This document shows positions 24,698 through 46,155 of a stretch of DNA of 64,000 bases, piece after piece. A program made the translations under genes and the position numbers. The notes under the pieces are model-generated. The model saw only the letters and a list, made by a program, of their open reading frames with translations. It was not told the origin of the DNA and did no database searches. Numbering within the stretch: the first letter of the stretch is position 1; the number at the start of each line of letters is the position of its first letter. The stretch is from an uncultured Pirellula sp. GTDB lineage: Bacteria > Planctomycetota > Planctomycetia > Pirellulales > Pirellulaceae. The DNA is taken from assembly GCA_903892355.1 (NCBI GenBank), contig CAITIE010000011.1, positions 1-64,000 of the forward strand. The letters are read 5' to 3'.

Positions 24698-25612
24698 ATG
24701 AATCACTCCAAAATACCAGATCGCTATGTTTGGGCTGACCTTCCGAGAGGAGGACTCGGCAATAAGCTTTTCGTTTGGGGCAACGCATATGTTGTTGCCG
24801 AGCGTAATCAAGTTCCACTGGTTGTTACCGGATGGAATAACCCCTTTGGTTTTCGTACCTTTTTAAAGGGAGGGGGGATTCGACGGTATGGTGCACTGTT
24901 TAGAAACTCTGGGGTTAAAAGGTCTCGGCTTCGAGAGTGGGAGAAATCAATCCAAGAGACTTTGGAAGAGCCCGCGCTTGAGACGCACCTGAAGATTGGT
25001 AGCAGGGCTCTGTTTTCTAAATTACCACCATGGCAAGACTGGTTCCAACCGTTGATTCCGTATCGGTCGATGGTGGTGCAAGGGTTTCATGCGATATTGA
25101 GCGAACGCGTTAAGGCAGAGACGAGTGGTTTGATTGGATCGCCCATTGCCATTCATGTTCGGCTTGGTGATTTCCGAAGGGTTGGCGTACACGAAGATTT
25201 CGCGAAGGTTGGGAACGCTAGAACGCCGATGGGTTATTTTTGTCGACTCGTCGAACGCATTCGTGACACGATAGGTTGGGATGCACCTGTCCGTATTTAT
25301 TCGGATGGTAGGAATAGTGAGTTGCAAGATCTACTTCGTATGCGTAACGTAACCAGAGCGAGAGATCGCAATCCCGTTCTTGATATGGTTGAAATGTCTC
25401 TTAGCAAGGTACTTATTCTGAGTGCGGGTAGTAGTTTCTCGCAGTGGGCGGCGTTTCTAGGTACCCAACCAGTGATAGCCCATTTTGAGCATTTTCATCA
25501 TCGAATTCGCGAACCATCGACAACCGTTTTTGAGGGGATTGCGAATCCGTACGAAGGAGAGTGGGATCCACTTTTGATTCGCAACTTAGTAGAAGAACTT
25601 CAGCGTGCATAA
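24698..25612 (+). CDS. GT11-like (alpha-1,2-fucosyltransferase family) glycosyltransferase
   Basis: This protein of 304 residues starts with the pattern YVWADLPRGGLGNKLFVWGNAYVVAERNQVPL, equivalent to the GGLGNQLF entry of GT11 enzymes. It has the donor-binding motif AIHVRLGDFRRVG in the place of the HxRRxD motif. The C-terminal ILSAGSSFSQWAAFLG also fits, where GT11 enzymes have SxSSFSWWAA. The genes for GDP-L-fucose lie 17 kb downstream. The ATG at 24698 was selected because the longer ORF overlaps the methyltransferase. The second Arg of the canonical HxRRGD is Leu here, so the exact activity should be treated as probable. Confidence 0.75.
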   Translation: MNHSKIPDRYVWADLPRGGLGNKLFVWGNAYVVAERNQVPLVVTGWNNPFGFRTFLKGGGIRRYGALFRNSGVKRSRLREWEKSIQETLEEPALETHLKIGSRALFSKLPPWQDWFQPLIPYRSMVVQGFHAILSERVKAETSGLIGSPIAIHVRLGDFRRVGVHEDFAKVGNARTPMGYFCRLVERIRDTIGWDAPVRIYSDGRNSELQDLLRMRNVTRARDRNPVLDMVEMSLSKVLILSAGSSFSQWAAFLGTQPVIAHFEHFHHRIREPSTTVFEGIANPYEGEWDPLLIRNLVEELQRA

Positions 25613-25647
25613 GCACAAAGTCGCTGGTTCGCATTGGACACTGGGTC

Positions 25648-27282
25648 ATGAGAGGGGTTAACTACGCGACGAGATGGGATTTTTATCTGCTTGGGATCCC
25701 AAGCATCGCATTGTCGCCATTGTTGTATTCGCAGGGGACGTTTTTGTGGGGGAAGCAGCACCTGCAATTTTTTCCCCTCGCGATTGCGGCGGTTTGTTAT
25801 TTTGTCGCGACGGAATGGGATCCGGCGGTAGCAGTCGAACCACGAAAGCAGGCCTATGCCAAGATCCTTTCTTGGATGGTGATGGCGTTAGTTGTGGTAA
25901 GTTCGCTGCTATATAGTTCGTGGCTGGCGCATGCCACGATGGTGCTAGCCCTCTTTACCTGGGCCTTGGGGCGTGTCGGCAACTTGTCGCTGTTAAGATT
26001 GATCGGCATTTGTGGTTTGGTCGCCATCACGATTCCGTTCCCCTTTGGTGGCGATCAAGCGTTGATCGAATGGCTGCAAAAGGCGTCGTCGCTCGCTTGT
26101 AGTCGCATGATGGATGTTTTAGGGATCGTCCACGTTCGAAGCGGCAATATCATGGAGATCACCGCAAAACCATTGTTTGTGGAAGAGGCCTGCAGCGGAG
26201 TTGATAGCCAGTATGCATTGATGGCCGTAGCGGGTGTGTTGCTCCTCATTGGACGAGCGAGTTTGTGGGTTTCCATTGCGACGATCGTGACCGTTCCGAT
26301 TTGGGCCATCTTAGGAAATATCCTCCGGATTTTCGCCATCGTTCTCGGGCTCGAGTATTGGAACCTCGACCTTTCCGAGGGGACCAAGCACACGTTGCTC
26401 GGGTTAGTTTGTTTTTCGATGGCGGCTTGGGCACATTGGAGTTCCGTCCAGTTTCTCAATTTCCTTGAGACGTTTCGGAGTTCCGATCGAACCGAAGAGA
26501 CGACAGCAACCACACACGAGCAGTCGCCCGAAACATCGATCGCGTTGTATCCAGGTGTACTCCCATTTGCCGCATGCTGTGGTTTGCTTCTATTTGCGCC
26601 GTTCGGATGGTTCTTGATTGTTGGAAACCGAGTGCAAAGTGTTATTCCCTCGATGGGGCGGGAGTTCGTAGAGACGTTTCCAGGGAGAGATGCAGCGTTT
26701 GCCAGGGGGCGAGGAACTGTCGTTGGATTCGAAACACAAAGCCGGTCACGCGATGATTTGCAGGGGCAGTTTTCACGTAGTTGGAGGCTTGCGACGGCAC
26801 GAGGGCTTGAGATCATCTCGCTCGACATGCCATTCCGTGGTTGGCATCCCTTGTGGGGCTGCTACGAGCTTGGGGGGTGGAATATTACGTCGAAGGATTT
26901 GGTATCGAGCCCTGGAGGCAACGCTGGATCAGAATGGCCGATCTACGAGGCGATACTTGCAAATGATTTTGGTGAGCACGCGGTTTTGCACTTCGTCCTA
27001 TTCGATCGCAGCGGGACTCCTTACATCCATGAAAACACGCGAATGTTTCTAGCTGAAAGAGATCGAAAGTATCGGACCCTATTTCAGGAAGTGATGGCGT
27101 TGTCGAATCAACTCCAAGGGGATCGATTGCCTATCACCTACCAATTGCAGATGCTTTCCAAGTCGGACGAGCCGTTCAGTCAGTCTGAGGTGCTCGCCCT
27201 GCGGGATCAATTTTTGAAAATGCGAGATCGGGCGATGAGCGAGTTAACTCCTGCCCTGCAATCATTGCCAAATGGCTTCTGA
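25648..27282 (+). CDS. Exosortase with C-terminal EpsI-like domain
   Basis: This is an integral membrane cysteine protease/transpeptidase of about 544 residues that is predicted to process PEP-CTERM proteins. Eight or so membrane helices fill residues 12-275. The three expected active-site residues are present: Cys182 (FVEEACSGVDSQ), Arg227 (ILGNILRIF) and His248 (LSEGTKHTLLG). After about residue 320 there is another hydrophobic helix (GVLPFAACCGLLLFAPFGWFLIV). It is followed by a periplasmic region with PFRGWHPLWGCYELGGWNI, similar to EpsI domains fused to exosortases. The ATG at 25648 is preferred because the longer ORF runs into the preceding gene. The helical repeat gene downstream overlaps by 11 bases. 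Confidence 0.9.
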   Translation: MRGVNYATRWDFYLLGIPSIALSPLLYSQGTFLWGKQHLQFFPLAIAAVCYFVATEWDPAVAVEPRKQAYAKILSWMVMALVVVSSLLYSSWLAHATMVLALFTWALGRVGNLSLLRLIGICGLVAITIPFPFGGDQALIEWLQKASSLACSRMMDVLGIVHVRSGNIMEITAKPLFVEEACSGVDSQYALMAVAGVLLLIGRASLWVSIATIVTVPIWAILGNILRIFAIVLGLEYWNLDLSEGTKHTLLGLVCFSMAAWAHWSSVQFLNFLETFRSSDRTEETTATTHEQSPETSIALYPGVLPFAACCGLLLFAPFGWFLIVGNRVQSVIPSMGREFVETFPGRDAAFARGRGTVVGFETQSRSRDDLQGQFSRSWRLATARGLEIISLDMPFRGWHPLWGCYELGGWNITSKDLVSSPGGNAGSEWPIYEAILANDFGEHAVLHFVLFDRSGTPYIHENTRMFLAERDRKYRTLFQEVMALSNQLQGDRLPITYQLQMLSKSDEPFSQSEVLALRDQFLKMRDRAMSELTPALQSLPNGF

Positions 27283-28864
27283 GTCAGCATCCGGATTGAT
27301 GAATACAAGATCGCAGTATTGGGAATGGAGCAAACCGTCGCTCGTGCTGGCGATCGTGACTGCGCTGTTCGCTTTGGCGAGCGTCTACACGCAGCGTCGC
27401 ATTCAGGGGTACTATCGAGGCATTGTCTCGTCGACCTTGGAGAACGTAGCGGACAGGACCCCAGTAAGTATCGCTGAAATCCAGCGTGCCGAGCTTGCGA
27501 ACAAGCGGTTGGGGCAGCAGGCATCCGACCCATCCGAGTTGCAATTCTCGGCCGCGAAATTGGCCAACGATGCATCGATGATGCATGCATCACGGGCGAT
27601 AGCGTTTCGAGAGGAGGGAGAATTGCAACGGTTCGTCGAAGAAATGGAGCGAAGCCGAATGGCTACGCGTCGAACGGTGGATTCGATGCGTCGGCTGGGG
27701 AAAATGAATGGAACCATGGCCGCAGGCGCAAGGCTATGGTTGCTGGGAGAGAGTGTTCCAAGCGGCCCGCTCATGGAAGTGGATTGGCATTCCTACTGGA
27801 TTGAGACCAGATCGCAGGCGCTCCAAGCGATTGCGGATTCGGAGACGGATGAGGCGTTGGCGTTGAATGCTATTCGACTGAGTGCATTGAGCACACTGTC
27901 GACCGCTATGGATTTAACCGCCGGTGAAGGGGGGAAGGATCGCGCCCATCGCCGTGGTGAGGTGGAGAACGCATTGAACGAGGTGGCGACGGTAGCGGAT
28001 TTGGATCCTCGATGTTTCATGATACGGATCGAGGGGATGGAATGCTTGGAGCCTGGGCAAGGCGTTCTGATCGCACGGTCCCGGTTTAAGGATTTGTTGG
28101 CGGGTGAAGGCGAAATCCACGGGTTGGATGGCAGGCAACGCGAGATGGAAAGGATTGATTCGGTATTTGTGTCCCTCCTTGTATTGGATAGTACGGACGA
28201 AGCATTTGCGTATGCGATGAATCAATTGGCGGCAAGGACGCTTGTGGATCCCGAAGCACTCCGCGCCGTGCTCACTCAATCCGTGATGAGAGCCATCGGT
28301 CGCGCCTATTGGTTTCCGAGTGGGGAGGCGACTACGAATTCGAAGCGGATTGCGGGGCTCATCAAAGGGTTGTTTGTGCTGGGGATCAAGTATCCACAGG
28401 CCTTAGAGCTCGTAGATCGAATCGTATTTTTACCTGGTTCGGATGCCGTTGCAGGCGAATTGGGTGAAGCCCTTTCGCGGGAGAGTGGTGCGGGGATAGC
28501 CACTGGCATCGATTGGTTGCGAGACCGGTTTGTTTTACGTGAAAACGTGGGTGGGGATACGAACCGTGCATCCTTGGTTGGAGTCGACGATGAATTGGCG
28601 GTGCCCATGCTCGGATTCATCGGATACATGATCCGCGAGAAGCAAGGTGGATCTGATGTTGCTATCCGCGTGATCGATGAGATGGCACGAAATTGGCCAT
28701 GGATTGGGGAATTGAGGGTTGCGCAGGCCATGCTGGCGACGGAGTTAGGACGCGATGACCAAGCCATTGCGATTTTGGCGGAATTGAATGAAAAGATTCC
28801 GGACAATGCACAAATACAGAACATGCTCGTGCAGGCCTACGAGCGGGCGTTGAAAAAAAGATGA
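27272..28864 (+). CDS. Membrane-anchored helical repeat protein of unknown function, next to exosortase
   Basis: I do not recognise a named family. The protein has 530 residues, a single membrane helix near the N-terminus (SLVLAIVTALFALASVY, about residues 27-43) and then an almost entirely alpha-helical extracytoplasmic part. The C-terminus (AQAMLATELGRDDQAIAILAELNEKIPDNAQIQNMLVQAYERAL) is clearly TPR-like. It overlaps the exosortase by 11 bases and the GT2 gene by 4 bases, so it belongs to this operon. A TPR protein is also found after the second exosortase at 36.9 kb, which suggests a linked role, perhaps as a scaffold for polymer or PEP-CTERM export. An alternative start is the ATG at 27299. 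Confidence 0.8.
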   Translation: MASESASGLMNTRSQYWEWSKPSLVLAIVTALFALASVYTQRRIQGYYRGIVSSTLENVADRTPVSIAEIQRAELANKRLGQQASDPSELQFSAAKLANDASMMHASRAIAFREEGELQRFVEEMERSRMATRRTVDSMRRLGKMNGTMAAGARLWLLGESVPSGPLMEVDWHSYWIETRSQALQAIADSETDEALALNAIRLSALSTLSTAMDLTAGEGGKDRAHRRGEVENALNEVATVADLDPRCFMIRIEGMECLEPGQGVLIARSRFKDLLAGEGEIHGLDGRQREMERIDSVFVSLLVLDSTDEAFAYAMNQLAARTLVDPEALRAVLTQSVMRAIGRAYWFPSGEATTNSKRIAGLIKGLFVLGIKYPQALELVDRIVFLPGSDAVAGELGEALSRESGAGIATGIDWLRDRFVLRENVGGDTNRASLVGVDDELAVPMLGFIGYMIREKQGGSDVAIRVIDEMARNWPWIGELRVAQAMLATELGRDDQAIAILAELNEKIPDNAQIQNMLVQAYERALKKR

Positions 28865-31820: not shown

Positions 31821-32076
31821 GGCTGGTCCGATAGGGGGCTTGATTGCCCCGGCGAATGACGATTGCGCGACGTACGCAGACTTTGGATTCCTCCATCGAA
31901 AACAATTGTCTGGTCACGGGCGAATGCGAGATTTCGCCATCGGCGGATCTTCGTCGTTTCTTAATCGACGCATCAGAATCGGGCGTCGAATCGTTAAATG
32001 CTGCAAAATCGAGGGCTTTGACCCTTGACGATGCGAGTTGTCACCTGAGAACATAAAGGTAACTTCAAAGAGAATA

Positions 32077-34512
32077 ATGAATATAAGTACCATGGATAAA
32101 CCAAATCCTCAGGCAGGCTTCGACGACTTGGGCGGGGGCTACAAAGCCATGAGTCCCCAGGGGGGCTACGACGATAACGCGTTGCCTTCGCTCGACGTCT
32201 ACGGGGCCTTATGGCGTCGGAAGTCGGTGGTTGTTCTATTGGCCATTGTTGGTGCTGGAATTGCAGCATTGCTTTATTCCCAGGCGACACCGACGTATGC
32301 GTCCGTACTCAGATTGATGCTGTTTATGCAGGCACCGCCGAGTGTGATCAATGGGGAAGTGATTCCCCAGCAAGTCGCTTTGGAGAAGCAGAGATATCTA
32401 CTAACGAGCCAACCGGTGCTCACGTCTGCGATTCAGAATGGGCAATTGGACAAGCTTCCAACGTTTGCCGGCTCGGACGGCCCGCTTGGTCAACTGCGTG
32501 GGATGCTCAAGGTTGCACCCGTCGGAAAAGATTTATCCTCGGACTCGTTGGAGGTACGTTGCGAGGGTGGCAACAAAGAAGACTTGCCCGGGATCCTAAA
32601 CCAAGTCGTCAATTCCTACGTCTCGACCATCGGGAAAGATTCTGAAGCGTCAGGGCAGGAATCGGTGGAACTGATTGAACGCCTGCAGCAATCGCTGGTG
32701 GAGGATCAGCAGGAAGCTCAGTCTCGGTACTACACGATTCTCAAAGAGTTGAACTTGTCTGCCGAGAACGATAAAGGGCGTTGGGTCAATCCCTACGTTG
32801 CAGAGATCGATAAACTGCGATTGCAAAGGGACGAATCTATCCAGGAGTTCCGCAGGTCGGATCAGCTGCTCGAAGAGGTTCGTATCGCGGTCGATCCGGA
32901 CAACAAGCGAGAGGAGTTGCTCAAACTGGCCATCGTCGAGGCGAAGAAGTACTTCAATGTGAACGGTAAGGATGCTTCGGATTTGGATCCTTTGACGATT
33001 GAGGATCGGCAGCGCTTGGTTCGTTACGAACAGAGGCTGGAAGCAGTTACGACCGAGGTGGTGACGTTGGAGGCCGAAAAAGAAGAAACTGCCAAGCGAT
33101 ACGGTGCGAGGCACCCACGCGTTGAAGACGCAGAGACTCGGTACAAGTCGGCACTGGCCACCAAGAATCGGCTCAGCGAGGAATATGAGTCGATGAAATC
33201 GACGCTCGGCGATAATGAAGAGTTGTCCCGAAAGAGTGAGGCATTGCTTCAAGATGTGCGGTCTCGCGATCAAGAGACACTGCAGCTGTATACCGCCGCA
33301 TTGCTCAATCAACGAGAGCGAGCCAAATACACCTTGGACAAGCTCTCGGAGGATATCACCGACCTAAGCGAGAAATCGAATCAAATTGCAGGAGATATCA
33401 CCGAACTCAACATGCTCCGCGATCAGATCGACGAGCGTCGTGAAAGCGTCACACAAATCCTTGAGAAGCTATCCGCAATGCGCGTTGTGTCAGGGAATTA
33501 CTCAACGACCAAGGTGAAGATCATCGACGAGGCGTCCTCGCCTGAGCAAGTGTATCCGAAGCTGTGGAAATTTCTCGCTGTTGGGCTGTTCGTTGGAGGG
33601 TTGCTCGGTGCATGTTTGGCGGTCTTGATCGACCATTCTGATTTGGCATTCCGTACACCGATCGATATTCAGGAGAGTCTTAACGTCCCGGTGATTTGCA
33701 AGGTGCCTCGCATTCGCAAGGGGCGTGTCAGCAAGGATTTTGCGGGGTCACCGATGTTGATCACCGCATACAACTCGACCTCTTCGGTTTCGGAAACTTT
33801 CCGCGCTGCAAGGACTTCGTTGCTGTTTTCTGCGGCGCAGTCGGGTAGCAAGGTATTCATGTTCACGAGCCCATCGCCTGGGGACGGCAAATCGACCACC
33901 ATCGCAAACTTGGCGATATCCCTTGCCCAAACCAACAAGCGTGTCTGCCTCGTCGACGCGGATTACCGCCGGCCTCGAGTGCAACAGAATTTCGGAGTGC
34001 AGTTCGAACCAGGTGGCATGCAGTACCTGCTGGGCGAATCGACTCTGGACGAAGCGCTCCGGCCGTGCGAGTTCCAAAACAACCTCACGTTGCTAACCAC
34101 CGGTGGTCGCCCGAAGAATCCCGGCGAGTTGGTAGCCTCCAACGGTTTTGCCGACATGATTACCGAACTGAGATCGCGGTTCGACATTGTGCTTATCGAC
34201 TCGCCTCCCGTGATTCCCGTCGCTGACGCAACCAGTCTCTCCGCGGTCGTTGATGGAATCGTCCTCGTGCTTCGTATTCGACGTGGTGTGATCCTTTCAG
34301 CCAGGAAAGCGAAAGAACGCCTCGACATGGTGCAAGCAAACCTAATGGGGGTAATCGTCAACGGGATGGACGAGAACATTTACTACAACGAATACGGCAC
34401 CTACTACCGAGGCGCGTATTACAGCGGCTACAACTATGGCCGCTACTACGATCGCCAGTACTCGGATTACTCGGACCGGCCGCGGACTGAGAAGCCAGCG
34501 AAACGGGTTTAG
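32077..34512 (+). CDS. Polysaccharide biosynthesis tyrosine autokinase (Wzc-like)
   Basis: This is a membrane protein of 811 residues that combines a Wzz-type chain-length domain with a BY-kinase. The first helix is VVVLLAIVGAGIAALLYSQ (near residue 50), followed by a long periplasmic coiled-coil region. The second helix FLAVGLFVGGLLGACLAVLI lies near residue 500. The cytoplasmic kinase has Walker A GDGKST at residues 602-607 and Walker A' CLVDADYRRP. The C-terminal cluster holds about 13 tyrosines in some 35 residues, more than the usual five to seven. Cyclic autophosphorylation of this cluster controls polymer length and export. The ATG at 32077 follows aaagaga; the ATG at 32092 is an alternative. 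Confidence 0.93.
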   Translation: MNISTMDKPNPQAGFDDLGGGYKAMSPQGGYDDNALPSLDVYGALWRRKSVVVLLAIVGAGIAALLYSQATPTYASVLRLMLFMQAPPSVINGEVIPQQVALEKQRYLLTSQPVLTSAIQNGQLDKLPTFAGSDGPLGQLRGMLKVAPVGKDLSSDSLEVRCEGGNKEDLPGILNQVVNSYVSTIGKDSEASGQESVELIERLQQSLVEDQQEAQSRYYTILKELNLSAENDKGRWVNPYVAEIDKLRLQRDESIQEFRRSDQLLEEVRIAVDPDNKREELLKLAIVEAKKYFNVNGKDASDLDPLTIEDRQRLVRYEQRLEAVTTEVVTLEAEKEETAKRYGARHPRVEDAETRYKSALATKNRLSEEYESMKSTLGDNEELSRKSEALLQDVRSRDQETLQLYTAALLNQRERAKYTLDKLSEDITDLSEKSNQIAGDITELNMLRDQIDERRESVTQILEKLSAMRVVSGNYSTTKVKIIDEASSPEQVYPKLWKFLAVGLFVGGLLGACLAVLIDHSDLAFRTPIDIQESLNVPVICKVPRIRKGRVSKDFAGSPMLITAYNSTSSVSETFRAARTSLLFSAAQSGSKVFMFTSPSPGDGKSTTIANLAISLAQTNKRVCLVDADYRRPRVQQNFGVQFEPGGMQYLLGESTLDEALRPCEFQNNLTLLTTGGRPKNPGELVASNGFADMITELRSRFDIVLIDSPPVIPVADATSLSAVVDGIVLVLRIRRGVILSARKAKERLDMVQANLMGVIVNGMDENIYYNEYGTYYRGAYYSGYNYGRYYDRQYSDYSDRPRTEKPAKRV

Positions 34513-34605: not shown

Positions 34606-34638
<33 letters not shown>

Positions 34639-34767
34639 AAATCGAAATCGTAATCTTAATCGGATGCTATAGCGTACTTTCGGGTTCGGAGATGGTTTTG
34701 AATTTTATCGCTATTGGATTTTGATGATCAGCGAATAGTAGGAGTAGGAGCACGAGCAGGAGCAGGA

Positions 34768-34790
34768 GCACGAGCACGAGCACGAGCACG
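34768..34790. repeat. Hexanucleotide tandem repeat (AGCACG)n, right arm of an inverted pair
   Basis: About four units of AGCACG form the exact reverse complement of the array at 34607. Degenerate units extend to the left (gagcaggagcaggagca) and ggagat-like units to the right. Confidence 0.88.
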
Positions 34791-34879
34791 AGATGGAGAT
34801 GGAGCAGGGGAGTGGGGTTATCAATCCTGAGAGGATGGCTTTTGCATGCTCCACCCCCTGATGAACCGACTTGAAAGAG

Positions 34880-34902: not shown

Positions 34903-35209
34903 CGTTGGTAGGTTGGCAATTTCACAGTTGAGGTTCGCGCTTTAGTCGGGAGTTGCGGAGACTCGGCGAATCGAGTATTCCGGCCCCGCCATGCTTTCGG
35001 GGGAAGGGTTGTATCGATCGTAGGGGCATGGGGGGCCGAGCGGCGGAAGGTACTTTGTGAATTTTGCGTGTGGGCTGCATGTTGGCGGGTTCGACCAAGG
35101 GGCGGGCGAGTACTCTAATGGAGTGCGCAATCACCTCCATCCAGGTTGGGATCGCGCTTGCTGTGCGAGCTTCATGAATTGAAGATTTCCTGAGACCTAT
35201 TGTGTGATC

Positions 35210-36868
35210 ATGGCTGGATTTTTGTTGTTGGTGTTTTCCGGGATTTTCGCCCACGGGTGGCTTCTGCTGCAGTTCTTTAGAGAGCGATGGGGATCGAATG
35301 ATGGTCTGTTCGTACCCGTTGCGATTCTCGTGGCCGCGGTATTGATTTGGCTTCGTCGGAAGGATTTTTTCGCTCGCAAAATCGATGATGTCGAGGATAG
35401 CGTCCGGTACCAGAGGGTTCGAGGAACGGTGGGAGTCGCCGGTGTCGTGGGACTACTCTGCGCTGGACTCGCGCTGCTGAGCAATGTGCTTGGTTCTACC
35501 CATTTGGGTTGGACCTCGTTCCTCATGTTCGCAGGGCTTCTTGCCTATCTGTTGTATGGCAAGTACGGCTATGCGGGAGTTGTTCCTGTTTTGGTGTTGT
35601 TGTATTTCATCAAGCCGATCCCCGATGCATTCGATCCGTGGGTGCAATTAGGGTTTCAGTGGGCGTCGAGCAGGATGGCCGGAGTGATCCTCGATTTCCT
35701 CGGCGTCTTCTACTACTACGAAGGAGTGGTACTGGGACTGGTCAGTCAGGACGGACTTGCTGTCGCAGCGTGCAACGGTGTGCGGTCGCTGGTTCCGGCG
35801 GTTTTCGTCGCTATCGCCTGGGGCATTGGTTGTCGGTATCACTGGTTCCGAACCTTTGTGAACGTATGCCAGACGCTTTGTTGGGTGGTGCTGTTCAATG
35901 CAATTCGTATTGCAGTGCTGCTGTGGAACCAAGATCGCGGTGGGGATTGGATAGAGAGTTGGTTCGCAACCAGTGTCATCGAGGTTGCTTCGCTGGCACT
36001 CATCCTATTCTTTGCGTGGAGCAGTGACCAATTATTTGCGAGCATCATCGAGCCATCGACCAATGCACTCCCTGACGGGGTGATCGATCCGGGGCTCAAG
36101 GACGTCGACTCCAAGCCTGTGGTTGCGTTATCGGGATGGGTCGCGATTGTTGGAGTGGTATTCTTGTTGGTCGGATTCGTAGCGATCCGTTGTAGTGCGA
36201 TGTACCCGTGGCATGGAGATCTACTTAGGGAACGGCTATCGTCGATCCAGTTGCCAGGCGAGATCGAAGGGTGGGAAGTTGTCGAGAGCTCATCCTCGGT
36301 CCCTCCTGCAAAGCCATTTGTGTTTTTTCCTGAGTTTGGTTCGACGACTCGAGATTGGGTTTTGGAACGCGAAGGGCGTAGGATGCAATTGCAGATCGCC
36401 GGTCCGAGTCAAACGTATCCTGGGTTGGGATGGTTTTGGAAATGGACTGGCTGGGACATGGGGCCAGTAAGCTACCACGAGGCGGATTCGTCGACGAAAA
36501 CATCGCGGAAATACGCACTGTTAGAATTAACCCGGTTACCCGGTGAAGCCGGAGCGGTGGTGGGTGGCGGACTTGGACCTGGCGGGGCGAATATTCCGCA
36601 GGGAAGCATTTTTGGCGTGAGCGACAACATCGGTGAGTTCCTGGGGAACGCAGTCAAGTACGGTGTCGGGGCGAGTTCGCTCGATGCGGTTGCCACGCAG
36701 ACACAGGGAGTGCCTGTGGGAGCGATTTCCCTCTACCGCAAGTCGGCCCGAAAGCTTGATCCCGAGCAGATCGAGGAGTTGAAGAAGGTGTTTGAGTGGA
36801 TTTTGGATCGCGTCCACTCGAATCCAACGGACGGGATGCCCAAGCCAACATCATCATCAAACGGTTGA
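35210..36868 (+). CDS. Exosortase family protein, atypical active site
   Basis: This is a second exosortase of about 552 residues with multiple membrane helices in residues 1-275. The catalytic Cys188 lies in LAVAACNGVRSLVPAV and the Arg233 in FNAIRIAVLL. The expected third residue, a His or Arg about 20-40 residues further on, is not visible in GDWIESWFATSVIEVASLALILFFAW. The Glu usual before the Cys (EAC) is Ala. The C-terminal part after a helix at about residue 300 is periplasmic and resembles EpsI in size and in IQLPGEIEGWEVVESS, with a WFWKWTGWDMGPVSY segment. A membrane-anchored TPR gene follows after 46 bases. It may serve a different PEP-CTERM subset, be altered in activity, or be inactive. 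GTG at 35204 is an alternative start. Confidence 0.8.
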   Translation: MAGFLLLVFSGIFAHGWLLLQFFRERWGSNDGLFVPVAILVAAVLIWLRRKDFFARKIDDVEDSVRYQRVRGTVGVAGVVGLLCAGLALLSNVLGSTHLGWTSFLMFAGLLAYLLYGKYGYAGVVPVLVLLYFIKPIPDAFDPWVQLGFQWASSRMAGVILDFLGVFYYYEGVVLGLVSQDGLAVAACNGVRSLVPAVFVAIAWGIGCRYHWFRTFVNVCQTLCWVVLFNAIRIAVLLWNQDRGGDWIESWFATSVIEVASLALILFFAWSSDQLFASIIEPSTNALPDGVIDPGLKDVDSKPVVALSGWVAIVGVVFLLVGFVAIRCSAMYPWHGDLLRERLSSIQLPGEIEGWEVVESSSSVPPAKPFVFFPEFGSTTRDWVLEREGRRMQLQIAGPSQTYPGLGWFWKWTGWDMGPVSYHEADSSTKTSRKYALLELTRLPGEAGAVVGGGLGPGGANIPQGSIFGVSDNIGEFLGNAVKYGVGASSLDAVATQTQGVPVGAISLYRKSARKLDPEQIEELKKVFEWILDRVHSNPTDGMPKPTSSSNG

Positions 36869-36914: not shown

Positions 36915-38525
36915 ATGTTTCATTTTCTTCGCGAGCTTCCGATACTAATCTTACGAGCTATCTCCGATGGCATCGAATGGTTGCTCGTCGCCATGTGGAA
37001 GCCATTCCAGCGAGAGAGTGACGATGAGGTGCTCCCGTGGCACAAAACTGCCGTGCTATTGCCCTTGTTGATTCCATACTGGTTGTTTCGATTGGCCTTG
37101 GGCGCGTTGTCCTTTCCGATCCGGGCCTTCTTCCTGCCGTCAGAGCGGCGAAAGCATTATCTTCGCGGGATTCCGGCGATGCTCTTGGGAACTGGGGTAA
37201 CGATAGGTTTGGTTGGCTACTTTTTCGTGCACGATCGCGTGATCGGTCGGTATATCAACCGCGCCCGGGGGGAGTTGGTTCGGAATGATATTGAAAAGAG
37301 TATCGAGTATGGTCGCCGACTGGTCTCGGAGCGTTCTGCATTAAACACCGAGGGTAAGTTTCTCTACTCTGTTTCTTTAGCGCAGCAGGGATCTGATGAA
37401 GGTTCGAATGCGGTGTTGGAGGAGATCGCACCCGACAATGTACCTGGATTTATGCCGGCGCATCAAATGCGGGCGATGGAGTTTGGACGATTGCTCACAT
37501 CGGGTGCGGAACCGCGCGAGGAGTTGCTGCAAAAGATGCTGTGGCATTTGGAGCAGAGTGGCGAAGCACGGGACGAGCGGATGCATGGACTTTGGGCGAC
37601 GTACTATGAGTTGAGCGGAGAAACGTCCAAGGCGATTTCGAGGCTTGAGAAGGCTGGGAAGACGAACCCGGCGTTCTTCGTGAAGCTTTCCGAAATCTAT
37701 CGTGAAGATGGCGATGAAGCTATGGAAAAGCGAGCCCTCGGCGACGCTGCTCAAGGGTACTCCGATCGATTGCGGGAGAACCCTCTGTCAAAGAATATCC
37801 GAGTTCAGTTAGCGCTGACGTTGGCGAGGCTTAAGCGTTGGGGGGATGCGGAATCGGTGTTGGTGAATGGAGTGCAGCTGCACCGCGATAAAGAAACCTT
37901 AGAAAAACTCGCCGACTTTTATCTGATGCGTTTGAAGGAGGAAACCGATTCGGATGCCATTGGGGCCGAACAAATCGATTTGCTGTTGCGGGCGTTGCGA
38001 GTCGACGTCAATCATTTCCGCACGTATGCGTTTCTTGCGAAGTTGTTCGACGCCTCGCGCAGCGAAGAGGAATTGAGAGACCTGAAGGAATTGCTAGAGG
38101 AACGAGTGGTAGATGGTGGGAATGCTGCTCTTGCGCATTTCGGTTTGGGGTGTTGGTTTTTAATGCAGCGGTCCAATGATCAAGGGCAATGGCATTTGAA
38201 GCAAGCGATGGCACTCGATCCGATTTTTGTGCTCGCCTGCAATAATCTGGCGTTTGCGTACACCCTTTCGGAACCGAAGCGGCTCGATGAGTCGCTTGCG
38301 CTCGTGAAGGCGGCGGTCGACGTTGCACCGGAATCGAACGGTACACTGGAAATGCTGGGGACGGTACAGCTGGAGCGTGGTGAGTTGGATAGCGCCGTGG
38401 AGACGTTGTTGCGGGTCGTGACTGAAAAGGGAGATAATAAGGGGGTACATGCCAAACTCGCCCGAGCGTATCGCGAACTTGGTGAGCTCGAGAACGCTGA
38501 AAAGCATGAAGCGTTGAGCAAGTGA
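36915..38525 (+). CDS. Membrane-anchored TPR protein, exosortase-linked
   Basis: This protein of 536 residues has two hydrophobic segments near the N-terminus (TAVLLPLLIPYWLFRLALGAL and GIPAMLLGTGVTIGLVGYFFV). They are followed by about 400 residues of helical repeats with clear TPR units at the C-terminus (AHFGLGCWFLMQRSNDQGQWHLKQAMALDPIFVLACNNLAFAYTL). It is a paralogue of the next gene: both share a VxExIAPDN...AHQxRA segment and a WHLxQSG segment in the same order. The ATG at 36915 was chosen because the ORF track start would overlap the exosortase. The function is unknown; the position suggests a partner of the exosortase or of the polymer machinery. Confidence 0.82.
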   Translation: MFHFLRELPILILRAISDGIEWLLVAMWKPFQRESDDEVLPWHKTAVLLPLLIPYWLFRLALGALSFPIRAFFLPSERRKHYLRGIPAMLLGTGVTIGLVGYFFVHDRVIGRYINRARGELVRNDIEKSIEYGRRLVSERSALNTEGKFLYSVSLAQQGSDEGSNAVLEEIAPDNVPGFMPAHQMRAMEFGRLLTSGAEPREELLQKMLWHLEQSGEARDERMHGLWATYYELSGETSKAISRLEKAGKTNPAFFVKLSEIYREDGDEAMEKRALGDAAQGYSDRLRENPLSKNIRVQLALTLARLKRWGDAESVLVNGVQLHRDKETLEKLADFYLMRLKEETDSDAIGAEQIDLLLRALRVDVNHFRTYAFLAKLFDASRSEEELRDLKELLEERVVDGGNAALAHFGLGCWFLMQRSNDQGQWHLKQAMALDPIFVLACNNLAFAYTLSEPKRLDESLALVKAAVDVAPESNGTLEMLGTVQLERGELDSAVETLLRVVTEKGDNKGVHAKLARAYRELGELENAEKHEALSK

Positions 38526-38574
38526 TGGATACCCAGCGAACGATAAAGTCAACGGAGCCAATGCGGAAGCAGTG

Positions 38575-40458
38575 ATGTCACGGGAAGCGATTCGAGAGTT
38601 CTTAGAGCGGATGTGGAAGGGGATCTGCGAGCCATTTGTATGGTTTGCGGAGTACCTGGAGGCATTCAAGCACCGGTCTCTGCCCACCGACACTGTGGAT
38701 TCCGATCGGTCGACTCTTACGGGCAGTGTCGATGGGGAGGTGGAAGGTGAGCGACCTCGAAACGTGCGGGAGTACGTTCGACATTGGATCCAAATAGCCA
38801 GGAATGCTTGGCGTCGATTCATGGACCCGTTAGGTTCGGAGCATCTGGCGAGTGAGGATGGGCTCGAAACGTCGGTCACGATGAAAGATCGTTTGACCGA
38901 ATACAAATCGCAGTTGAAGCATCAGTTTGGGATCGAAGGGAACGAGATCGACCAACCAGAAGGCTCGGAGAAGGCCGACCCAACGCAACCTCGGGGGCTC
39001 GTTGGGATACTTTGGAGGCGTGTTTCGAGTTTTTGGAATTGGTTGACGTGGAGCAATCTTCAAGCATTCGTGCAATTGCATCGCCGCGAGAGTTTACTGG
39101 CGATTCCTGTCGTGCTGCTGCCCGGATTTCTGGCTTTGGTGGCCTTGACGCAATATTGGACTCGGACTGGTACCACAACGCGTTATGCGAAGGAGATGGC
39201 CGAGGCGGTAAAGGATGAAGAGTGGGGGCGTACAGCGAATCTGGGGAAGCGGTTACTGCAAGCGGCGGGACCGAGAGCCGTCGAGTGGACGTATGCGTTT
39301 GGTCAGGGACTCGCGGGAATCTCCATGCCGGTTGAAGCGGATTTGGTGTTCGAAGCCATCGCGCCCGACAACGACATCGGTTATCCGCGAGCGCATCAAA
39401 AGCGAGCCAAATGGTGGGCAGAGCGGTTCCGCGTTAGCCAGAACTCCGAGTATTTAACGCGCCTGCAGTGGCATCTGGTGCAGTCAGGTCAGCATCGCGA
39501 CGAAAAGTTGTACTTGATTGCGGCGGAGTACAACACGCTCATGGGTCGCTACGTGGATGCGTTGGTGCAAACCGAGCGGGCCGCTCAGTTGAACCCGATC
39601 CATTATTTTGATCTGGCCGATCTTTATCGGACGTTGGGAAATCGCGACGGAGGGATTCGAGCGATCCAGTTGGGCAAGTCCGAGTTTGCCAAGCGATTGG
39701 CGGCAGACCCTTTGAATGAAAGAGATCGGGTTTCGCTGGCAAAGGCATTGGCCAAGCAATCGCAGTACGATGAGGCCGAGCGATTGCTCCGCACGGGGAT
39801 CGATTTGCAAGATACTCAGGGGTTGCACCGCGCGCTCGGTGAGATCTATGGCATTTGGTTCGATCAGCAACAAGGCAAGCCGAACACCAAAATGGAATCG
39901 CAGTTAGGCCTTTTGGAGAAGGGACTCCGCGAGGATGGTGGATCTGCATCGCTCTATGACCGATTGCTGGGGATGTACGGGGCTGCGAATGAGGCGCAAA
40001 AGGAAACGGTGCGTCGCGTTGTGGAGCCTCTTTGCGAGAGTGGGCCTAATCCAGCGATGGCAATTTTCGCCATGAGCAGCATGCGGATCATGGACAATGA
40101 TTTTGTCGAGGCGGAGAGGTTGTTGCATCGTGCGTTGGCGTTGAAGCCAGACCTTGCCGCCGCGAAGAACAACCTTGCCTATCTGCTGCTGACGCAGTAT
40201 CCCGAACGGAATACAGAGGCGCTAAGGTTGGCATTGGAAGCGGTGGGAACGGCGCCTAGCGAAGCAAGTTTTCGGGAGACTCTGGGTTCCGCTCAATTAC
40301 GAAACGGTGATTTTGTGGGTGCTATCGTTGAATTGGAGAAGGCGTTACCGGCGGCCAGAAATAAGAAGTTGGTTCACGCGAAATTGGCCGAGGCCTATGA
40401 AAGCCTTGGGAAAAAAGAAATAGCAGAAGGACACCGTAAAGAAGCGGATGGACGATAG
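38575..40458 (+). CDS. Membrane-anchored TPR protein, paralogue of the preceding gene
   Basis: This protein of 627 residues begins with a charged cytoplasmic part of about 165 residues and then a membrane helix (LLAIPVVLLPGFLALVALTQYW). The remainder is a helical repeat domain with TPR units such as FVEAERLLHRALALKPDLAAAKNNLAYLLLTQYPERNTEALRLA. The repeats align in order with those of the preceding gene (FEAIAPDNDIGYPRAHQKRA and WHLVQSGQHRDEKLY), showing a tandem duplication that has diverged. The ATG at 38575 follows a GTG at 38572. It ends the exosortase/TPR set and is followed after 190 bases by a PEP-CTERM gene. Confidence 0.82.
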   Translation: MSREAIREFLERMWKGICEPFVWFAEYLEAFKHRSLPTDTVDSDRSTLTGSVDGEVEGERPRNVREYVRHWIQIARNAWRRFMDPLGSEHLASEDGLETSVTMKDRLTEYKSQLKHQFGIEGNEIDQPEGSEKADPTQPRGLVGILWRRVSSFWNWLTWSNLQAFVQLHRRESLLAIPVVLLPGFLALVALTQYWTRTGTTTRYAKEMAEAVKDEEWGRTANLGKRLLQAAGPRAVEWTYAFGQGLAGISMPVEADLVFEAIAPDNDIGYPRAHQKRAKWWAERFRVSQNSEYLTRLQWHLVQSGQHRDEKLYLIAAEYNTLMGRYVDALVQTERAAQLNPIHYFDLADLYRTLGNRDGGIRAIQLGKSEFAKRLAADPLNERDRVSLAKALAKQSQYDEAERLLRTGIDLQDTQGLHRALGEIYGIWFDQQQGKPNTKMESQLGLLEKGLREDGGSASLYDRLLGMYGAANEAQKETVRRVVEPLCESGPNPAMAIFAMSSMRIMDNDFVEAERLLHRALALKPDLAAAKNNLAYLLLTQYPERNTEALRLALEAVGTAPSEASFRETLGSAQLRNGDFVGAIVELEKALPAARNKKLVHAKLAEAYESLGKKEIAEGHRKEADGR

Positions 40459-40620: not shown

Positions 40621-40653
40621 ATGTTTACTACCATCCGGTTTGTTTCATCATGA
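40621..40653 (+). CDS. Possible ten-residue leader peptide upstream of PEP-CTERM gene
   Basis: The frame ATG TTT ACT ... TCA TGA encodes MFTTIRFVSS and stops in an ATGA overlap with the PEP-CTERM start at 40650. A gaaga run precedes the ATG, while the main gene has no Shine-Dalgarno-like sequence. It is too short for coding statistics, so this is a suggestion only. Confidence 0.3.
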   Translation: MFTTIRFVSS

Positions 40654-41471
40654 GATTGTTTGTTGCGAGTTGTCTTTCTTTGTTAGCGTTGTGTGCCTTG
40701 CAATCAAAAGGCGAGGCCGAGATTGTGCTTACAACGTCGACTTACACTCAGAACTTCGATTCATTGGGTATCAACGCGACTGCCAACGCTTTTAGCTCTA
40801 CAGTGGGAACCATTTCACCGATTCCAAATTTAACCAGTTGGGATGGAGCGAAGGTCGGAGGTAACGGTACAACGAGCGTCGCCATGTCGATTAGCGACGG
40901 AAACTCCACTTCTGGAGGGATGTACAGTTTTGGTGCTGCAAGCGGTGCGGATCGTGCTTTGGGCGTGATTGCATCAGGAACAAACATCATGGGGTTTGGG
41001 TTCCAATTGCGGAATAACACTGGCACAACGATCACTGGGTTGGATATATCGTTCACACAGGAGAATTGGCGGTCTTCCACAACGTCTCAGAACACGGTTA
41101 CTGCGGGTTGGGCATTAGGCTCAGGGTCCATTACCTCTGCCAATTACATCACTGCGGTTGGGTTTAATGCAGTCTCGGGTTTGAACTTAGTTGGTCCTGC
41201 AGCGGTTGCTACAAATGGGGCTTTGAATGGAAACGATGTAGCAAATCAGGTAGCAAGGTCGGCTTCGATTACTGGGCTCACGCTCGCACAAGGGGACAGT
41301 ATCTTTTTCCGTTGGGTTGACGCAAACGATACGGGCAATGATGCGGGACTTGCCATTGACAATTTTTCATTGACCGCATTTTCATCATCAGCTGTTCCAG
41401 AACCTGCGACCCTTTCACTCCTGGGGGTCGCGATCGGACTCGGTGCCGTTGCTCGCTATCGTCGCAAATAG
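40650..41471 (+). CDS. PEP-CTERM sorting domain protein
   Basis: This is a secreted protein of 273 residues. It has an N-terminal signal peptide (MRLFVASCLSLLALCALQSKGEA) and a C-terminal exosortase signal (VPEPATLSLLGVAIGLGAVARYRRK). The mature part has Ser/Thr/Asn/Gly-rich beta composition with motifs common in PEP-CTERM proteins (YTQNFDSLG, FFRWVDANDTGNDAGLAIDNFSLTA). No ribosome site precedes the ATG. A ten-codon reading frame at 40621 ends with TGA overlapping the start as ATGA, so initiation may depend on translational coupling. A strong hairpin terminator follows. It sits directly after the second exosortase/TPR set. Confidence 0.92.
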   Translation: MRLFVASCLSLLALCALQSKGEAEIVLTTSTYTQNFDSLGINATANAFSSTVGTISPIPNLTSWDGAKVGGNGTTSVAMSISDGNSTSGGMYSFGAASGADRALGVIASGTNIMGFGFQLRNNTGTTITGLDISFTQENWRSSTTSQNTVTAGWALGSGSITSANYITAVGFNAVSGLNLVGPAAVATNGALNGNDVANQVARSASITGLTLAQGDSIFFRWVDANDTGNDAGLAIDNFSLTAFSSSAVPEPATLSLLGVAIGLGAVARYRRK

Positions 41472-42628: not shown

Positions 42629-43633
42629 TCACCGCGATGGCTTGCTCTCATTTCCTGTGGCCTTGAGCATCGCGAGATCGTGGTCAACCATGATTCCTGC
42701 GAGTTCGGCGAGGCTCGTTTGCGGTACCCATCCTAGCTTATCTTTGGCATGCGTGGCATCGCCGAGCAGGTTTTCTGGGTCGGCTGGTCGAGCGAACCTG
42801 GGATCGAGTCGATAGTATTGACGCCAATCGAGTCCGACATGTTCGAATGCGAGTTGCATGAAGTCGCGGACCGTATGGGAGCGTCCGGTTGCTAGCACAT
42901 AATCGTCAGGCTCTTCTTGTTGGAGCATGCGCCACATGGCATCCACAAACTCTGCGGCATAACCCCAATCGCGAGCGGAATCGATGGAGCCCATTAGCAA
43001 CTCCCGTTGCAGGCCCATCTTGATCCTCGCGGCGGCCAAGCTGATTTTCCGTGTTACGAAATTTTCGGCTCGCCGGGGACTCTCGTGGTTGAAGCAGATC
43101 GCATTGCAGAAATAGAGTCCGTGCGATTGCCGATAGATCTTGACCATCTGCGTCGCAAACGCCTTGGCCGCACCGTAGGGAGAATTTGGATTCATCGGCG
43201 TATGTTCATTCTGTGGAATGACGGCTGGCGTCCCAAATATCTCGCGGCTACTGGCGTGCACGAAGCGGGGTGGAGACGGCTGGTCACGAAGGATTTCGAG
43301 GATGCGCAGCGTTCCGATAGCGGTCAATTCGCAGGTGCTTTCGGGGATTTCAAAGCTGATCCCGACGTGAGATTGCCCGGCGAGATGATAGAACTCGGTC
43401 GGTTGTACCCGCGTGATAATTCGACGGAGGGACGTGACATCCGATAAATCGGAGTAGTGCAGAAACAGGCGTTTGCGATAGACCGACTCATCGCGGTATT
43501 GCTGGTCGATGCGAGGTCGTTCAAGTGTGCTGCTGCGTCGAACGATGCCATGGACCTCGTACCCCTTGCTCAGCAGCAGCTCGGATAGATACGATCCATC
43601 TTGGCCGGTAATACCGGTGATCAATGCACGCAT
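42629..43633 (-). CDS. gmd: GDP-mannose 4,6-dehydratase, divergent copy
   Basis: This is an extended SDR enzyme of 334 residues that converts GDP-D-mannose to GDP-4-keto-6-deoxymannose. It has [30 protein letters not shown], the NADP-binding RRS, the catalytic region HASSREIFG and SPYGAAKAFA (YxxxK), and NHESPRRAENFVTRKI. Several family positions differ from the adjacent gmd (SREIFG in place of SSEMYG, SHVGISFEIP in place of [10 protein letters not shown]), so the two are old paralogues. The ATG at 43633 is used instead of a TTG two codons earlier. It is the third gene of a minus-strand set fcl-gmd-gmd. Confidence 0.85.
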   Translation of the reverse strand: MRALITGITGQDGSYLSELLLSKGYEVHGIVRRSSTLERPRIDQQYRDESVYRKRLFLHYSDLSDVTSLRRIITRVQPTEFYHLAGQSHVGISFEIPESTCELTAIGTLRILEILRDQPSPPRFVHASSREIFGTPAVIPQNEHTPMNPNSPYGAAKAFATQMVKIYRQSHGLYFCNAICFNHESPRRAENFVTRKISLAAARIKMGLQRELLMGSIDSARDWGYAAEFVDAMWRMLQQEEPDDYVLATGRSHTVRDFMQLAFEHVGLDWRQYYRLDPRFARPADPENLLGDATHAKDKLGWVPQTSLAELAGIMVDHDLAMLKATGNESKPSR

Positions 43634-43728
43634 GTGCAAACCCTGAAATTAATTGATGTATCCATGGTGGATGGAGCGAGTCGCCCTTAGACCTTAATTC
43701 TTTCGAAGGGATGAATACGGTCGAGCGA

Positions 43729-44742
43729 TCAGACGCTAAACGAGTTGCTGTGAAGTTCTCTCTGAGCCAGTTCCAGGTCGTGTTCGACCATGATTCGAGC
43801 CAGTTCGCGAGCGTCTGTTGCGGGTGACCAGCCAAGTTTTGATTTCGCTTTGCTGGGATCGCCGAGGAGCAAATCGACTTCGGCTGGGCGGAAGTACCTC
43901 GGATCGATTTCCACAAACTTGTCCCATTCCAGGTCGAGTTCGCCGAATACCATGTCTAGGAATTCGCGGATCGAATACGTCTCGCCGGTGGCGACGACGA
44001 AGTCATCGGGTTCGCTGTGTTGCAGCATCAGCCACATCGCTTCGACGTAGTCCTTCGCGTATCCCCAATCCCGTTTCGAGTCGAGATTTCCGAGGTAGAG
44101 TTTCTTTTGCAATCCGAGCTTGATCCGAGTCGCGGCCCGTGTAATTTTTCGGGTGACGAAGGTTTCGCCGCGTCGAGGGGATTCGTGGTTGAAGAGAATG
44201 CCGTTGCTAGCAAACAGCCCGTAGCTGCGTCGGTAGTTGACGGTTTGGAAGAATGCGTAGACCTTCGCGCACGCGTATGGGCTTTGCGGGTTGAACGGGG
44301 TGGTTTCGCTTTGGGGCGTTTCTAAGACAGCGCCATACATCTCGGACGAGCTCGCTTGGTAAACCCGTGTCTGTTTGCGCTTGTTGAGGATGCGGGCTGC
44401 TTCGAGGACATTGAGGGCGCCGACACCGTCAGTCATCAACGTGTACACCGGCTGATCGAACGAAACCCGAACGTGGCTCTGCGCTCCTAGGTTGTAGATT
44501 TCGTCCGGTTCGAGTTCCAGCACCAGGTTGGTGAGTGCTTGACCGTCGGTCAAATCGCCGTAGTGGAGAAGCAATCGCGGGTTTTCGTGGATATCTTTGT
44601 AGAGGTGGTCGATCCGGCCGGTGGTGAAGCTGCTGCTGCGACGCACAAGTCCGTGAACGGTGTAGCCTTTATTGAGTAAGAGCTCTGCCAAGTAGGAGCC
44701 GTCTTGGCCGGTGATGCCGGTGATGAGTGCAGATTTGGTCAT
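43729..44742 (-). CDS. gmd: GDP-mannose 4,6-dehydratase
   Basis: This enzyme of 337 residues matches canonical Gmd closely throughout. The Rossmann motif is [32 protein letters not shown], followed by [18 protein letters not shown], the catalytic ASSSEMYG and [10 protein letters not shown], and the [19 protein letters not shown] nucleotide-binding loop. It makes GDP-4-keto-6-deoxy-D-mannose, which the neighbouring Fcl turns into GDP-L-fucose. The gene starts 133 bases after fcl ends and is probably cotranscribed with it. Confidence 0.93.
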
Positions 44743-44875
44743 TGTTTCTTCGGGTTGGTGCCGTCTCTTGAAAAGGTTGGGTTTGGTGCCAATGCTCGGT
44801 GGGATGGATTGTGGGCGGTTGTTTTGGGAGTGCTAGGTCGCTCGATGGCTGCTGTTAGCGTACTTAATCGATGAT

Positions 44876-45832
44876 TTACTGACTACGGAGATTGCCGTTA
44901 GAGAGCCCGGTTAAAAAGTCTTCATAGGCGAGTTTCAGGCCCTCTCCTAGTTCGATGGTTGGGGTCCAACCGGTTGCTTGCATGAGCGATGTGTCGGTCA
45001 GCTTTCGCGGGGTCCCATCGGGTTTGGAGGGATCCGTCAAAATCTGCCCTTGGTAACCGATGGTTCGAGCCACGAGGTTCGCAAGTTCCAGGATGGAGAT
45101 GTCCGTGCTGGACCCGACATTCACCCAGTCCGGAGGATTATGGATCGAGATCAGATGTAGCAACGCATCCGCAAGGTCGTCGACATACAGGAATTCGCGA
45201 CGTGGTTTACCGGTGCCCCAGATGGAGATTGTTTCTGCACCGTTGATCTTGGCTTCGTGGAATCGGCGAATTAAACCTGGGATCACGTGGCTGTGGTTGG
45301 GGTGGTAGTTATCCCCTGTGCCATACAAATTGGTGGGCATCGCGGAATGGAATAACACACCATACTGTTTGCGATAGTACTGGCAGAGTTTCAGTCCCAC
45401 GATCTTGGCGAGCGCGTAGGCCTCGTTGGTTTCCTCAAGAGGCGATGTCAGCAAGTACTCTTCGCGGATCGGTTGTGGAGCCATGCGAGGGTAGATGCAG
45501 GTTGAGCCTAGGTAGAGAAATCGTTTGACCCCGAGTTCGTATGCGGCGGTGATGGTCGCTATCGCCATCTGAACGTTTTCTGAGAGGAACTCGACCGGGT
45601 AGGTCGCGTTTGCAATGATACCTCCGACGCGGGAGGCCGCGAAAACGATGGCGTCTGGGCGGTTCGCCTCGAGGAAGGCGCGAACGTCGCTCTCCCTCGT
45701 CAGATCCAATTGTTCCCTTGGAGCTGTGATAACCTGGATGTGAGGGTGCTTGCGGGCCAACAAGCGGCAGAACGCGGAGCCGACCATTCCCCGATGGCCG
45801 GTCACAAAGATCTTTTGGTAGGGGAGTTCCAT
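44876..45832 (-). CDS. fcl: GDP-L-fucose synthase
   Basis: This is a bifunctional epimerase/reductase of 318 residues that completes GDP-L-fucose. It shows KIFVTGHRGMVGSAFCRLL, VFAASRVGGIIAN, the catalytic LGSTCIYPRMAPQPIREEYLL, and YALAKIVGLKLCQYYRKQYG (YxxxK). It also has the family signature AMPTNLYGTGDNYHPNHSHVIPGLIRRFHEA. I chose the ATG at 45832 (MELPYQKIFVTG); the ORF track start adds seven residues. It is the first gene of the minus-strand fucose set and supplies the likely donor for the GT11-like enzyme at 24.7 kb. Confidence 0.94.
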   Translation of the reverse strand: MELPYQKIFVTGHRGMVGSAFCRLLARKHPHIQVITAPREQLDLTRESDVRAFLEANRPDAIVFAASRVGGIIANATYPVEFLSENVQMAIATITAAYELGVKRFLYLGSTCIYPRMAPQPIREEYLLTSPLEETNEAYALAKIVGLKLCQYYRKQYGVLFHSAMPTNLYGTGDNYHPNHSHVIPGLIRRFHEAKINGAETISIWGTGKPRREFLYVDDLADALLHLISIHNPPDWVNVGSSTDISILELANLVARTIGYQGQILTDPSKPDGTPRKLTDTSLMQATGWTPTIELGEGLKLAYEDFLTGLSNGNLRSQ

Positions 45833-46155
45833 GATTGAGCCTGTGTTTGTCACCGCGAAACACTCGAATAGCGGATCGCTCTCCGGTCCAGTTTAATTCC
45901 CCGTGGGAACGCGACAATGTTGGGGCATTCCAATGTGCAATCCGGTCGAGGAAACGCTGAGTCCGTGAAACTTCTGTCCCAATGCAGCTTGAGGATATGG
46001 TTTTTAAAGGTTGAACCAAAATCGATACCTCGGACAATACGAATTTTCGGCCTTCGGTACAATATCCGTTGTGATGGGGCCGAGAAGGTCTCGTTTTGTG
46101 CGGAAAAAACAGGGTTATTCGCAGAACTTAACGTCAAAACGAAAAGATTGAGTGC
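45833..46155. other. Divergent intergenic region, no gene
   Basis: The region lies between fcl (minus) and the DUF971 gene (plus) and should hold both promoters. The overlapping ORFs listed run into fcl or the DUF971 gene in wrong frames and look like noise. No unambiguous promoter box pair was found by eye. Confidence 0.4.

Follow-up and report, generated by a model that had tools for sequence, protein, structure and literature searches.

Membrane-anchored TPR proteins paired with XrtU-type exosortases in planctomycetes, and a paired exosortase clade that lacks the invariant histidine motif

Introduction

Exosortases are predicted across many Gram-negative bacteria, where they are believed to sort proteins to the cell surface. 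To our knowledge, their accessory subunits are poorly defined. The present analysis concerns two tandem genes, T1 and T2, which encode tetratricopeptide repeat (TPR) proteins and follow an exosortase gene, E2, in a 64,000-nucleotide stretch of DNA (the window) from an uncultured Pirellula sp. (GenBank assembly GCA_903892355.1, contig CAITIE010000011.1, positions 1 to 64,000; Table 1). Operon-paired, co-inherited and in places fused with exosortases, the family to which T1 and T2 belong (the T family) is a concrete candidate for a missing subunit.

The TPR protein PrsT, tied to PEP-CTERM systems, was named in 2006, in a survey where only 3 of 13 genomes had the Prs genes beside or close to EpsH (PMC1569441). 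In Aquincola, prsT is required for floc formation (PMC9850573). T1 and T2 resemble PrsT as TPR-repeat envelope proteins tied to a PEP-CTERM/exosortase system, and PrsT (TIGR02917) is their best NCBIfam match. However, the scores were 59.1 bits for T1 and 61.4 bits for T2 against a cut-off of 312.2, the match was confined to the C-terminal TPRs, and both proteins (Table 1) are shorter than the 899-position model. Unlike PrsT, they carry a membrane anchor and lie directly downstream of exosortases of XrtU rather than XrtA type; both exosortases of the window fell below the XrtA cut-off of 208 (78.0 and 35.9 bits). An alignment of 21 T members showed basic N-termini, an anchor helix near residues 80-105 and, by inspection, no N-terminal lipobox cysteine. 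Orthology of T1 and T2 with PrsT was ruled out by score, length and the missing lipobox.

Other systems offer partial parallels. LbcA is a TPR adaptor that activates the protease CtpA and has been proposed to wrap substrates (PMC8764530). In LbcA-CtpA of Pseudomonas aeruginosa and NlpI-Prc of E. coli, as is predicted for the T proteins, a TPR superhelix is tethered in the envelope; theirs is thought to deliver substrate and activates the processing protease. However, LbcA is a lipoprotein of the outer membrane and its partner CtpA is a soluble serine protease, and T1 resembles LbcA at the level of the TPR fold only. EpsI (TIGR02914) is an accessory domain encoded beside or fused to exosortases (PMC1569441), whereas in this locus E2 itself ends in an EpsI-type domain and the T proteins form a further helical-repeat subunit unrelated to it. 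Like XrtU (NF033780) and the EpsH family (PF09721), E2 has the multi-helix core of an exosortase and a C-terminal domain resembling EpsI, but it lies below the XrtU_C cut-off, is without the invariant His motif and belongs to a clade that loses further triad residues.

No description of XrtU, of a planctomycete exosortase-TPR pair or of exosortase pseudoenzymes was found in the literature searched, which excluded subscription papers, so that a prior mention is possible. An earlier note on this DNA had supposed the exosortase partner to be uncharacterised. Within that literature, this holds for the pairing itself, and it has to be qualified for the general idea, a TPR accessory of PEP-CTERM systems being known in principle from PrsT (PMC1569441).

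Linkage of the T family to exosortases

The distribution of the T family was surveyed in 241 genomes of the same family and named planctomycetes. Loci were chosen around T1 hits in rank order with their neighbours disregarded (T-first loci), and were mapped with profile hidden Markov models. Directly downstream of a same-strand exosortase lay 46 of the 93 T open reading frames (ORFs) in these loci, or 46 of 84 when only ORFs that were linked or had 1.5 kb of upstream sequence were counted. With 20 exosortase-side loci added, 52 of 99 T ORFs were linked, and the exosortase was always upstream and on the same strand. The gaps in these 52 pairs ranged from -179 to +294 nt, and 14 pairs had a 4-nt stop/start overlap, an arrangement typical of coupled translation. 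T1 shares the features of the linked family: it begins 46 nt after the stop codon of E2 and falls in a co-inherited clade of 10 members, all of them exosortase-linked. Another 46 nt separate T1 from T2. Comparison of the 46/84 with a chance expectation set generously at 0.14% per gene ruled out chance co-location. The possibility that the linkage is a by-product of picking exosortase loci was answered by tallying T-first and exosortase-first loci separately, which guards against selection by exosortase.

The distances among the 52 exosortase/TPR pairs were strongly correlated (Mantel r = 0.93; maximum of 2000 permutations, 0.24). The mirror-tree correlation among distant pairs was 0.89, and 37 of 49 splits were common to both trees. 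The agreement shows, at the level of sequence, that the exosortase-TPR pair is inherited as a unit, and it owes something to shared organismal history.

Conversely, in an exosortase-first scan, genome contigs were searched for a conserved XrtU stretch, and 78 loci were obtained; the bait pattern demands ACSG and is blind to Cys-less exosortases. A TPR partner was present at 31 of the 50 informative planctomycete loci, as the next gene in 27 and fused in 4, versus none of 23 exosortases of the gammaproteobacterial group, one of which is from a sphingomonad (Fisher p = 9e-8). A linked pair is also carried by an isolate, Planctomycetes bacterium CA13 (L199). Fused exosortase-TPR proteins of 1037-1045 residues were found at two loci (L225, L230), and the orthologous split form at four (L223, L224, L226, L229), the two forms being about 50% identical across the exosortase and 38-45% identical across the TPR region. 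A second, more distant fusion architecture was found in another genus, in very long exosortases (L147:9350-12901 and L148-L151; 1162-1860 residues) with large C-terminal TPR regions to which the match to the T profile is confined. Short of biochemistry, natural fusion is the strongest indication that the exosortase and TPR parts act together.

These findings support the T family as a dedicated exosortase partner, as judged from gene order and phylogeny. Linkage across related genomes was the test that the earlier note had set for its proposal, and the T-first tally, the tree congruence, the fusions and the occurrence in other planctomycetes all bear it out. The ORFs and the PF09721 and PF07589 matches likewise agree with its placing of tandem T1/T2 downstream of the second exosortase and upstream of a PEP-CTERM gene.

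The exosortase-first scan also returned four XrtU-like exosortases without a TPR neighbour, from Mariniblastus and other uncultured planctomycete metagenome-assembled genomes (L206, L207, L208, L231), each with a conserved gene next to it that is convergently oriented and encodes about 1314 aa.

Loss of catalytic residues in E2

E2 matches the exosortase family profile PF09721 (Table 1). It scored 32.6 bits against TIGR02602, below the cut-off of 105.55, and 20.6 bits (E = 3e-4) against XrtU_C, below the cut-off of 40, and no Xrt subtype in NCBIfam was matched above its cut-off. XrtU_C is matched by 35 of 43 TPR-linked exosortases.

The motifs Cys-X-Gly, Asn-X-X-Arg and His-X3-Gly are invariant in exosortases and contain the predicted triad (PMC1569441). 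The triad is intact in exosortase 1 of the window (ACSG, NILR and HTLLG at residues 210, 253 and 277). E2 keeps ACNG (Cys190) and NAIR (Arg235), and its His-X3-Gly motif is missing, with Thr256 in place of His and Glu260 in place of Gly. This loss had not been mentioned in the earlier note.

A triad census was carried out on a tree of 66 exosortases. E2 belongs to a fully supported clade of 10 members, all TPR-paired, in which the His is missing from every member. Some have also lost the Arg (L102, L105, L111), the Cys (L088) or all three residues (L075, L132). In the whole tree 16 exosortases have lost triad residues. The supported branches require a minimum of three independent losses; the lineages concerned outside the E2 clade are G063/G193-195 and G040.

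Selection was evaluated from the ratio of nonsynonymous to synonymous substitution rates (dN/dS). The ratio was 0.17 for E2 against its G084 orthologue and 0.08 for T1. Other degenerate exosortases gave 0.19-0.26 (L102/L105/L111) and 0.23-0.38 (the G193-195 set). For reference, two intact pairs had ratios of 0.06-0.18 and the TPR partners 0.08-0.19; dS was near 1 in some of the comparisons. For the G103 copy of E2, which spans two contigs, the N-terminal part was left out. Judged by these ratios, the degenerate exosortases are under purifying selection and are not pseudogenes. Plain pseudogenisation was ruled out by the ratios together with the intact reading frames.

The AlphaFold2 model of E2 (pLDDT 76.7) retained the membrane core of helices, with an alpha/beta domain at the C-terminus. 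The best-ranked fold matches of the E2 model, which concern its EpsI-like C-terminal domain (36200-36868), were START and Bet v1/PYL helix-grip lipid-binding domains, all at weak significance (best E = 0.06). If the fold match is real, the EpsI-like domain of E2 could hold a lipid used in anchoring. A search by sequence turned up no solved exosortase structure.

Kinship, fold and topology of the TPR proteins

T1 and T2 aligned by BLASTP over 454 residues with 29% identity (E = 4e-50), far past chance. The IAPDN, AHQxRA and WHLxQSG blocks, which the two proteins had been said to share in order, were located at residues 171, 182 and 210 of T1 and 263, 274 and 300 of T2. TPR matches of T1/T2 above the Pfam cut-offs were obtained for TPR_19 (39.8 bits) and TPR_2 (40.0 bits). 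The AlphaFold2 model of T1 (pLDDT 87.1) is all-helical, with N-terminal helices followed by helix pairs in a superhelix. Hydropathy and this model support a predicted architecture of a membrane anchor and a TPR superhelix for T1 and T2. In T2 the anchor is preceded by an N-terminal extension of about 170 aa.

The orientation of the T proteins was assessed from the charges around the anchor. The 25 flanking residues carried a net charge of +3.0 before and +0.9 after the anchor (32 proteins vs. 7) when the comparison was anchored on a conserved Pro-Ala segment. A count of Lys and Arg in the 15 residues beside the best hydrophobic segment gave a weak bias (45 vs. 28). The basic N-terminus suggests that the TPR part lies in the periplasm. 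By inspection, the exosortase-TPR fusions have an extra hydrophobic segment ahead of the TPR part, consistent with a TPR part on the same side.

The helical-repeat membrane protein reported to follow the first exosortase, T3, is present, its start (27272) overlapping the end of exosortase 1. T3 gave no significant BLASTP match to T1 or T2, which ruled it out as a close paralogue, and its TPR hits in Pfam were all sub-threshold. A profile of T3 relatives aligned with the T-family profile over a length that includes the anchor (Table 1), in a comparison where repeat proteins can inflate scores. By profile comparison T3 is thus likely a remote, collinear relative of T1 and T2. The expected likeness among all three proteins therefore stands for T1 and T2 as close paralogues, fails for T3 in pairwise comparison and returns for it as a remote profile match. 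The T3 family was found only in 11 genomes of the window's genus, where several copies share contigs with E2-type exosortase-TPR pairs, and XrtU-T3 and E2-T1 look like one locus within the genus.

Proposed role and alternative explanations

Exosortases act on the periplasmic side of the membrane. The T proteins are predicted to be anchored in the membrane, with a positively charged N-terminus in the cytoplasm and a long TPR superhelix in the periplasm. The superhelix would bind the exosortase and, as in the TPR adaptors of other envelope proteases, may capture or present PEP-CTERM proteins or retain them; alternatively, it may couple them to the exopolysaccharide (EPS) machinery. The damaged triad of E2, and the decay within its clade while the TPR gene is kept, favour a non-canonical role over that of a normal sorting enzyme. 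Our preferred reading, to which we give a probability of roughly 0.55, is that T1 and T2 are partners of XrtU-type exosortases and that E2-T1-T2 is most likely a non-canonical substrate-binding, scaffold or regulatory unit, acting beside the intact XrtU of the window and the third exosortase of the host genome on contig 82.

A more specific form of this reading is put forward tentatively. E2 and its relatives may be pseudo-exosortases, several lineages having independently shed the triad and kept the fold and the TPR partner. The module would then bind, retain or route PEP-CTERM or lipid-linked clients at the inner membrane without cleaving them, and the TPR protein would be its functional core. 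The triad-less exosortases with the same partner make it testable which share of PEP-CTERM handling is catalysis and which is capture by a membrane complex, a long-open question, and the fusions tell which exosortase and TPR parts act together.

It is unlikely, in our estimate, that E2 is active with a changed third catalytic residue and that T1 and T2 are ordinary activators or substrate adaptors. Such an enzyme would agree with the Cys190-X-Gly and Asn-X-X-Arg235 motifs, intact in E2 and its 71%-identical orthologue, and with the constraint implied by the E2 ratio. It would leave aside the loss of His-X3-Gly throughout the clade, the further loss of Arg, Cys or all three residues in members that keep the TPR gene, and the same decay in at least two other lineages. 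The T proteins might instead act in the assembly of EPS or surface polymers, the role proposed for PrsT, and be neighbours of exosortases solely through shared EPS loci. The window locus is indeed an EPS cluster with a chain-length kinase, PrsT is the best match of T1 and T2 at 59 and 61 bits, and solitary T genes exist. However, the immediate same-strand adjacency with the exosortase upstream, the 4-nt overlaps, the tree congruence and the fusions are exosortase-specific and not EPS-specific, and this explanation appears decidedly improbable. That E2-T1-T2 is a decaying, functionless duplicate of an exosortase-TPR operon, as the triad loss and an E2 ratio about twice that of T1 might suggest, is very improbable given intact frames, dN/dS well below 1 for E2, T1 and T2, and the persistence of the clade, in conserved gene order, in at least eight genomes of the genus.

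Several observations weigh against the preferred reading. The substitution of Thr for His in E2 does not prove inactivity. About half of the T family is without an adjacent exosortase, 19 of the 50 informative planctomycete exosortases of XrtU type lack a TPR gene beside them, and strong T members with no detected exosortase occur in two genomes that are 80% and 90% complete. PEP-CTERM genes are only about 2.4-fold enriched near T genes. Finally, the adaptor role is argued by analogy and the TPR fold matches are unspecific: the fold and sequence matches of T1 are general TPR proteins, LbcA among them, and OGT, APC/C and others outrank LbcA in the fold matches, with TM-scores of 0.3-0.4.

Members without an adjacent exosortase

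The T family as a whole is not exclusively exosortase-linked. In the window's genus there are two solitary ortholog groups, whose host-genome copies lie on contigs 64 and 38. By hand count, an exosortase is present in 36 of the 38 genomes that gave a strong T hit (E < 1e-30) and in 148 of the 203 others (p = 0.003). This excess suggests that the solitary members could work with exosortases in trans. The solitary gene on contig 38 (G000, L068:7134-11159) lies between the genes of a DUF1570 protein and a PIG-L deacetylase, and the contig 64 paralogue is preceded by a lipoprotein-like gene without a Pfam match.

Organization of the locus

Table 1. Features of the window, with positions, strand and supporting data
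Feature	Position	Strand	Data
Exosortase 1, XrtU	25561..27282	+	NF033780, 110.9 bits (cut-off 40)
T3, membrane-anchored helical-repeat protein	27272..28864	+	hhalign 97.4%, E = 1.3e-11, 428 columns
Polysaccharide chain-length determinant/tyrosine autokinase	32038..34512	+	TIGR01007, 149.9 bits (cut-off 108)
Exosortase 2 (E2), long, XrtU-like, EpsI-type C-terminal domain	35204..36868	+	PF09721, 67.4 bits (cut-off 25.7)
T1, inner-membrane-anchored TPR protein, first of the tandem	36915..38525	+	536 aa
T2, second tandem TPR paralogue	38572..40458	+	628 aa
PEP-CTERM protein, C-terminus VPEPATLSLLGVAIGLGAVARYRRK	40650..41471	+	PF07589, 23.6 (cut-off 20.7)

Both exosortases of the window sit in the EPS locus. 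The host genome holds 3 exosortases, 4 T-family genes and 12 PEP-CTERM stretches above the cut-off. The PEP-CTERM protein beside T2 is likely of the substrate class, and its gene occupies the same position in G084 (L089), where T2 has a close orthologue in identical gene order. Alternative starts are available to both tandem genes: a TTG at 36792 would give T1 a longer frame, and the second codon of T2, the ATG at 38575, is an equally good start.

Between the tyrosine kinase gene and E2 (34610-34810), two hexamer-like low-complexity runs of opposite sense were observed (gtgctc..., gagcac...), and these opposed repeats could form a large hairpin. On the minus strand at 42629-45853, two tandem paralogous nucleotide-sugar dehydratase-like genes are accompanied by an epimerase-like gene; read by eye, the three would represent a GDP-sugar pathway of the EPS locus.

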